Assembly: GCA_014762505.1 (NCBI GenBank)
Contig: JABURS010000033.1
Coordinates: 1-64,000, forward strand
DNA length: 64,000 bases
Direction of reading: 5' to 3'
Source of the DNA: Chromatiales bacterium
GTDB taxonomy: Bacteria > Pseudomonadota > Gammaproteobacteria > SpSt-1174
In this document: one piece after another, positions 41,614 through 43,020 of the stretch
Position numbering within the stretch: the stretch's first letter is position 1
How the letters are laid out: every line of letters starts with the position of its first letter
Program-made: the position numbers and the translations under genes
Notes under the pieces: generated by a model
The model's input: only the letters and a program-made list of their open reading frames with translations
Told to the model about the DNA's origin: nothing
Databases searched by the model: none

Positions 41614-41639
41614 GGGTGGCCGCTCAGGGAGGTGTGGCG

Positions 41640-41909
41640 ATGCGAAGATGGCGTTTTCCGATCTCGATGCTGGTGCTGGGCGGTCTGGCCTTCTGGTTCA
41701 GCGACCTGTCCAGCAAGGCCTGGCTGCTGTCTGTCATCCTGCCGCTGCTGGTGGCGCTCGCCCTGGTCTCGCTCATGGTCTGGCTGGTGCTGTTTCTGCA
41801 CGAGGAGGGCTTCGACGATGCCTGGTTCGCGGAGGGTGAAACCGAGCAGGGTCAGGAATCGGGCGAGGGTGGCCCGGTCGACGTGGACGATGGCGGCAGC
41901 CCCGGCTAG
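41640..41909 (+). CDS. Small two-helix membrane protein
   Basis: The 89-residue protein has two hydrophobic helices (about 7-21 and 28-51) and a very acidic, Gly-rich tail (EGETEQGQESGEGG...DVDDGG). I recognise no family. ATG 41640 has GGAGG about 8 nt upstream. It follows the antiporter gene by 26 bp and may be co-transcribed with it. It converges on bpt with a 4-bp overlap of stop codons. Confidence 0.7.
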   Translation: MRRWRFPISMLVLGGLAFWFSDLSSKAWLLSVILPLLVALALVSLMVWLVLFLHEEGFDDAWFAEGETEQGQESGEGGPVDVDDGGSPG

Positions 41910-42819: not shown

Positions 42820-42933
42820 CTAGCGGTGGCCGCTCTTCAGGAAACGCACGATGTAGTAGCTGCCGATGCCGAAGAGCAGTACCAGGGCGACGATGCTGCC
42901 CCAGGCGGCCGGGTCGTTCAGGATGAGTTGCAT
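42820..42933 (-). CDS. 37-residue single-helix membrane protein (FNR-box controlled)
   Basis: Translation gives 37 residues beginning MQLILNDPAAWGSIVALVLL and ending with a basic tail (RFLKSGHR). One transmembrane helix spans about 11-29, N-terminus probably outside. AGAGGA lies 8 nt before the ATG. The pattern resembles the DUF3149 family of tiny membrane proteins, or a small respiratory-oxidase accessory subunit; I cannot decide. A perfect FNR box lies 74 bp upstream of the start, with a fitting -10 (TAACCT, 42984-42979). This strongly suggests a real, anaerobically induced gene. It is too short for most gene finders. Confidence 0.75.
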   Translation of the reverse strand: MQLILNDPAAWGSIVALVLLFGIGSYYIVRFLKSGHR

Positions 42934-43006
42934 GGTCGTTGTCCTCTGATGTTCTCGGGATGTCGAAACCGTGGATGCAGGTTAACGCGGCTTCGGACGG
43001 CGGGTT

Positions 43007-43020
43007 TTGATCCAGATCAA
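43007..43020 (-). promoter_or_regulatory. FNR/Anr box
   Basis: TTGATCCAGATCAA is a perfect TTGAT-N4-ATCAA dyad. Read leftward, it is centred 41.5 bp before a predicted start site near 42972, with TAACCT at -12 to -7: the class II FNR-activator layout. Read rightward, it is about 150 bp before metH and too far from a metH promoter to be an obvious activator there. Confidence 0.85.

Follow-up and report, generated by a model that had tools for sequence, protein, structure and literature searches.

The small gene, its promoter and its relatives

The window, i.e. the whole stretch of 64,000 nucleotides of a Chromatiales bacterium analysed here, carries a 37-codon gene on the minus strand, preceded by an FNR box. 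The translated product of the ORF 42820-42933 (-) is MQLILNDPAAWGSIVALVLLFGIGSYYIVRFLKSGHR (37 aa). The following features were assigned at the locus:

42820..42933, minus strand: gene of 37 codons with ATG start, encoding a membrane protein with one helix; probable divergent DUF3149 relative
42937..42947, minus strand: ribosome binding site region with AGAGGA, about 8 nt 5' of the ATG, read from the sequence
42979..42984, minus strand: −10 element TAACCT, whose offset of 36 from the box is exactly that of a class II promoter
43007..43020, minus strand: FNR box TTGATCTGGATCAA (TTGAT-N4-ATCAA), 0 mismatches

The first-pass annotation had described a one-helix protein gene with a good ribosome binding site, and the ORF, the AGAGGA motif and the AlphaFold model agree with this. 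The model, which was based on a 27-sequence alignment, contains one helix (residues 8–35, pLDDT mostly above 90 there). The N-terminus of the protein is acidic and the residues R30, K33 and R37 lie at its C-terminus; an N-out/C-in topology is predicted from the positive-inside rule. The genes around encode a KefB/C-type antiporter, an arginyltransferase (ate), MetH and MltF, and no respiratory gene was found among these neighbours, as had been stated in the annotation. Directly 3' of the antiporter gene, there is a 97-aa ORF (41616-41909, plus strand) with hydrophobic stretches and an acidic tail, which produced no match in the NCBIfam search and possibly encodes a partner of the antiporter.

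Both promoter elements proposed previously were confirmed. The box has no mismatch to the FNR pattern, and a search of the complete 2.77-Mb genome found only five such perfect boxes, compared to none in the reversed-pattern control. With up to one mismatch, the pattern was found twice in the window (0.39 expected). The element TAACCT lies at the exact class II −10 offset, which fits the transcription start predicted earlier near 42972. The distance between the centre of the box and the ATG is 80.5 bp. The genome encodes FNR, which was recognized by the stretch ACKHCSLHDLC, a further cysteine (HPCSA) and the recognition helix VETVSRL (E--SR). The sequence features of the FNR regulon, a box at −41.5 with a −10 element and a genome-encoded FNR, are all present here.

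Homologues of the window gene (window-type genes) are rare: they were present in 3 of the 369 genomes of the class in our survey sample, i.e. in the window genome, in G002 (same family, 51% identical) and in G188 (another family, 65% identical). For the pair formed by the window and G188, pN was 0.24 and pS 0.67, and pS also exceeded pN in the other two pairs, which supports a real gene under purifying selection. In all three window-type loci, the box is located 70–81 bp from the start codon of the small gene. The genes metH and ate accompany the small gene at each of these loci, in varying arrangement. In the window, the small gene and the divergent metH flank the box, at the G002 locus a DUF302 gene is on the other side of the box, and at the G188 locus ate is inverted relative to the small gene and hence stands across the box. 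The layout of box plus gene is therefore kept in the relatives, as the first-pass annotation had asked; the opposite outcome, a lost frame with the box kept for another gene, was not seen, since the frame and the box stay while the opposite gene changes. Taken together with the conserved box, these sequence comparisons argue for a conserved class II FNR promoter of the 37-codon gene. Among the named loci retrieved via ate, the small gene was beside ate in none, so the synteny with ate is not general. In the same-genus genome G001 (75% complete), the locus gave no match either by DNA or by the ate protein.

The DUF302 protein gene in G002 (L002:793-1266, minus strand; box at 1421-1434) encodes a signal-like N-terminus and is divergent from the small gene. 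It could share the FNR-type box with it.

Relation of the protein to DUF3149

A search against DUF3149 had been suggested in the annotation, and this turned out to be informative at the level of profiles. The window protein alone scored 14.3 bits (E 0.031, residues 2–32 aligned to profile positions 3–32 of 40) with DUF3149 (PF11346), which is below the curated Pfam cut-off of 23.2 bits, and the whole-genome DUF3149 search misses it. When a profile of the three window-type sequences was compared with a profile of 23 DUF3149 sequences by hhalign, 35 ungapped columns were aligned with a score of 29.8. None of 200 permutations of the helix columns reached this value (13.3 ± 2.7, maximum 22.3), and permuting all core columns gave a maximum score of 15.8. 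The protein of L056 (G140), which scored 23.7 bits with DUF3149 and is 27% identical to the window protein, is an intermediate between the two; both the box and the −10 element are present at its locus.

The window protein resembles DUF3149 proteins in length, in the helix at the same columns and in the basic C-terminus, and its FNR box lies at the same distance and is also combined with a class II −10 element. It differs in having ILNDPAA in place of the LFGN-x2-GL motif. A window-type gene and a DUF3149 gene were found together in none of the 369 genomes; this absence, in a sample with only three window-type genomes, is at most consistent with replacement. The comparisons support the window protein as a divergent relative of DUF3149, which is not a member by the curated rule. 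Neither the window protein nor either of the two profiles found a credible relative among the PDB sequences, and our literature search for DUF3149 or PF11346 found no paper naming the family.

FNR-type boxes and cco genes at DUF3149 loci

The first sample of DUF3149 consisted of 27 loci over the cut-off, and a second draw added nine new ones. Together with the three window-type loci and two loci just below the cut-off from the genome search, 41 loci were available. In the first sample, a box with up to one mismatch was found within 150 bp in 13 of the 27 loci, while 0.31 were expected from dinucleotide shuffles. With up to two mismatches, a criterion which lets in some chance matches, the count was 20 of 27 (2.66 expected). 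Before the second draw, we fixed the prediction that the new loci either have a box with up to one mismatch or are part of a cco operon. Three of the nine new loci had such a box, two had a box with two mismatches, one gene was located between ccoP and ccoG, one was upstream of ccoN and two showed neither feature. The strict form of the prediction thus held for 4/9 loci (5/9 when the gene next to ccoN is included) and the looser two-mismatch form for 7/9.

In 14 of the 29 loci having a box with up to two mismatches outside the ccoP–ccoG slot, the sequence TANNNT was present at offset 36, and in 20 of them at offsets 35–37. The background in these loci was 0.39 per offset elsewhere, and the mirrored position gave 0. 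This one-sided occurrence at 35–37 is characteristic of a class II promoter that transcribes the small gene. For some DUF3149 members, the position of the start codon is known only to within a few codons, and the distances to it may therefore shift by up to approximately 15 bp. Long ORFs running antisense to known genes in these GC-rich loci were regarded as artefacts. The DUF3149 gene of G146 is directly followed by a same-strand gene for an apparent Crp/Fnr-type regulator (L069:4220-4889, minus strand).

The neighbourhood of the cco genes was mapped by tblastn with cco proteins, and CcoP, CcoG and FixH were confirmed by Pfam. Six DUF3149 genes were located between ccoP and ccoG (two in family f134, three in f147 and one in f125), one just after fixH and with its own box (f131), and one approximately 0.85 kb upstream of ccoN (f83). 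All eight are on the cco strand, and they come from five families only. The box was present in none of the six genes in the ccoP–ccoG slot and in 29 of the 35 others (Fisher p = 2e-4), and ccoN scored over the cut-off in 26 of 27 DUF3149 genomes versus 117 of 247 others (p = 2e-7), both p-values being inflated by kinship and shared lifestyle. The one DUF3149 genome without ccoN is 55% complete. Since cbb3 and FNR frequently occur together in low-oxygen lifestyles, the co-occurrence with ccoN is weak evidence when taken alone. Apart from cco, no other recurrent respiratory neighbour was detected in the DUF3149 flanks by clustering and reading by eye, by which the neighbours away from cco were identified, not all of them by family search. 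The gene positions support a link of DUF3149 to cco clusters.

The window genome contains two ccoN genes, and in its higher-scoring cco cluster (C43) the box TTGATCTAGGTCAA is located upstream of ccoN. No DUF3149-like ORF was found in this cluster. With FNR and ccoN in the genome, both the regulator and the presumed partner are present. A perfect FNR box in G000 (L097; C29:69072-69085) is contained in the 3'-terminal part of a cox11/ctaG-like gene, which is followed on the same strand by a SURF1-like gene. It may be a chance occurrence or regulate the aa3 oxidase genes.

A candidate small partner of the cbb3 oxidase

Small subunits of terminal oxidases such as CydX, CydH and CcoM escaped notice for a long time, being tiny and in many cases encoded at a distance from the genes of their complex. 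CcoM is a proven orphan one-helix subunit of cbb3. The CcoM query sequence was checked against chain N of PDB 5djq and NF041600. The window protein gave no match up to E 10 with this model (cut-off 40 bits), nor did a search of the window genome, and NF041600 scored above the cut-off in 1 of 274 genomes (G163). At the ccoM gene of G163 (L094, C15:37758-37859), the box TTGACATCGGTCAA (TTGAC-N4-GTCAA) was found 74.5 bp upstream with the −10-like TAACTT at offset 35, which is the same layout as that of the window gene and DUF3149. Hence, CcoM resembles the window protein in its size (about 36 aa), its one helix, its orphan gene and, in G163, its FNR-type promoter layout, but differs in sequence family. 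The score of CcoM with the DUF3149 profile was 19.5 (permutations 13.2 ± 2.4; 1/100 as good), so that homology of the two sequences is borderline, and for CcoM and the window type, 3/100 permutations were as good, which is not clearly above the null. The Pfam and NCBIfam models of the CydX type did not match the window protein, which matched DUF3149 and, weakly and probably spuriously, DUF5693. Membership in the CcoM- or CydX-type families, which the annotation had proposed to check, was thus not borne out.

The Pseudomonas oxidase requires CcoM in order to be stable (summarised in PMC8267372). The uncharacterised inner-membrane proteins CcoX, CcoY and CcoZ of Campylobacter are encoded between ccoP and ccoH and are needed for full cbb3 activity (PMC8267372). 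They share the operon niche with the in-operon DUF3149 proteins but are set apart by their descriptions as DUF4006, unknown and DUF5130, respectively (PMC8267372). CcoQ, CcoS and CcoH (FixQ, FixS and FixH) are single-helix proteins of cbb3 assembly or stability, and CcoH sits in the cbb3 complex with its helix next to CcoN (PMC7876108). However, neither the window protein nor the scanned DUF3149 members matched the Pfam families of these three proteins, and FixH is encoded by a separate gene beside DUF3149.

As a relative of DUF3149 tied by context to cbb3, the 37-aa protein is probably an unrecognised small partner of this high-affinity oxidase. We consider it, with a probability of roughly two in three, to be encoded by an orphan gene under FNR activation and to act as an accessory subunit of cbb3 or as a factor in its assembly or stability, similar to CcoM in its working and not in its sequence. 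The annotation had suggested that the protein is an orphan subunit of a respiratory oxidase under the control of FNR, and the purifying selection, the box travelling with the gene, the kinship with DUF3149 and the cco clusters speak for it; the protein may alternatively be a new regulator of membrane complexes. When oxygen falls, the FNR of the genome would bind the box and act as a class II activator of the promoter reading the 37-codon gene, an activation which we infer to operate in vivo. The protein would insert as an N-out/C-in helix, as its charges suggest, and would then dock on the cbb3 oxidase in physical association with it, serving presumably in its assembly or stability. In some lineages, the related DUF3149 gene resides in the cco operon between ccoP and ccoG. 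In most lineages, including that of the window, the gene stands alone and is equipped with an FNR promoter for itself.

In the main rival explanation, the partner is another complex regulated by FNR: the small protein would be induced by FNR for another low-oxygen complex (bc1, nitrate or nitrite reduction) or would be a general membrane modulator, and its presence in cco operons would reflect shared regulation only. Most DUF3149 genes, and the window gene, are indeed orphans, and a common FNR regulon could account for the co-occurrence with ccoN. However, the in-operon genes of three families sit precisely at the junction of the structural ccoNOP and the assembly genes ccoGH, further genes of two more families are next to fixH and before ccoN, and clustering and reading by eye of the flanks found no other respiratory neighbour that recurs. 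We therefore regard this explanation as unlikely, although it is the strongest of the competitors. Somewhat less probable still is that the window protein has no homology to DUF3149 and is an unrelated FNR-controlled one-helix protein with a convergent layout. Its score below the DUF3149 cut-off and the ease with which one-helix proteins are confused favour this reading, but the profile score is higher than that of any of the 200 helix-permuted controls, the intermediate L056 has the box and the −10 element, and the two types were never found together in the 369 genomes.

Being palindromic and located between the ORF and metH, the box might drive the divergent gene (metH here) or be shared, the small ORF being incidental. 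This is very improbable, since the opposite gene varies (metH, DUF302 or ate) while the ORF and the box stay together, the −10 element is on the ORF side only in the 29 loci and the ORF is under purifying selection. A box serving metH or ate was rejected on the basis of synteny and the −10 orientation.

In a wider sense, DUF3149 and its divergent relatives could be a small subunit or an assembly factor of cbb3 that is widespread in Gammaproteobacteria and has as yet no name, encoded either in the operon or as an orphan with an FNR promoter, with CcoM maybe as its Pseudomonas branch; the odds for and against this appear to us about even. A domain family of unassigned function would thereby gain a function that can be tested, together with a regulator and a partner complex, and the combination of an FNR box, a class II −10 element and a one-helix ORF provides a search rule for further genes of this kind. 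The finding is relevant to the way in which bacteria assemble their oxidase for respiration at very low oxygen.
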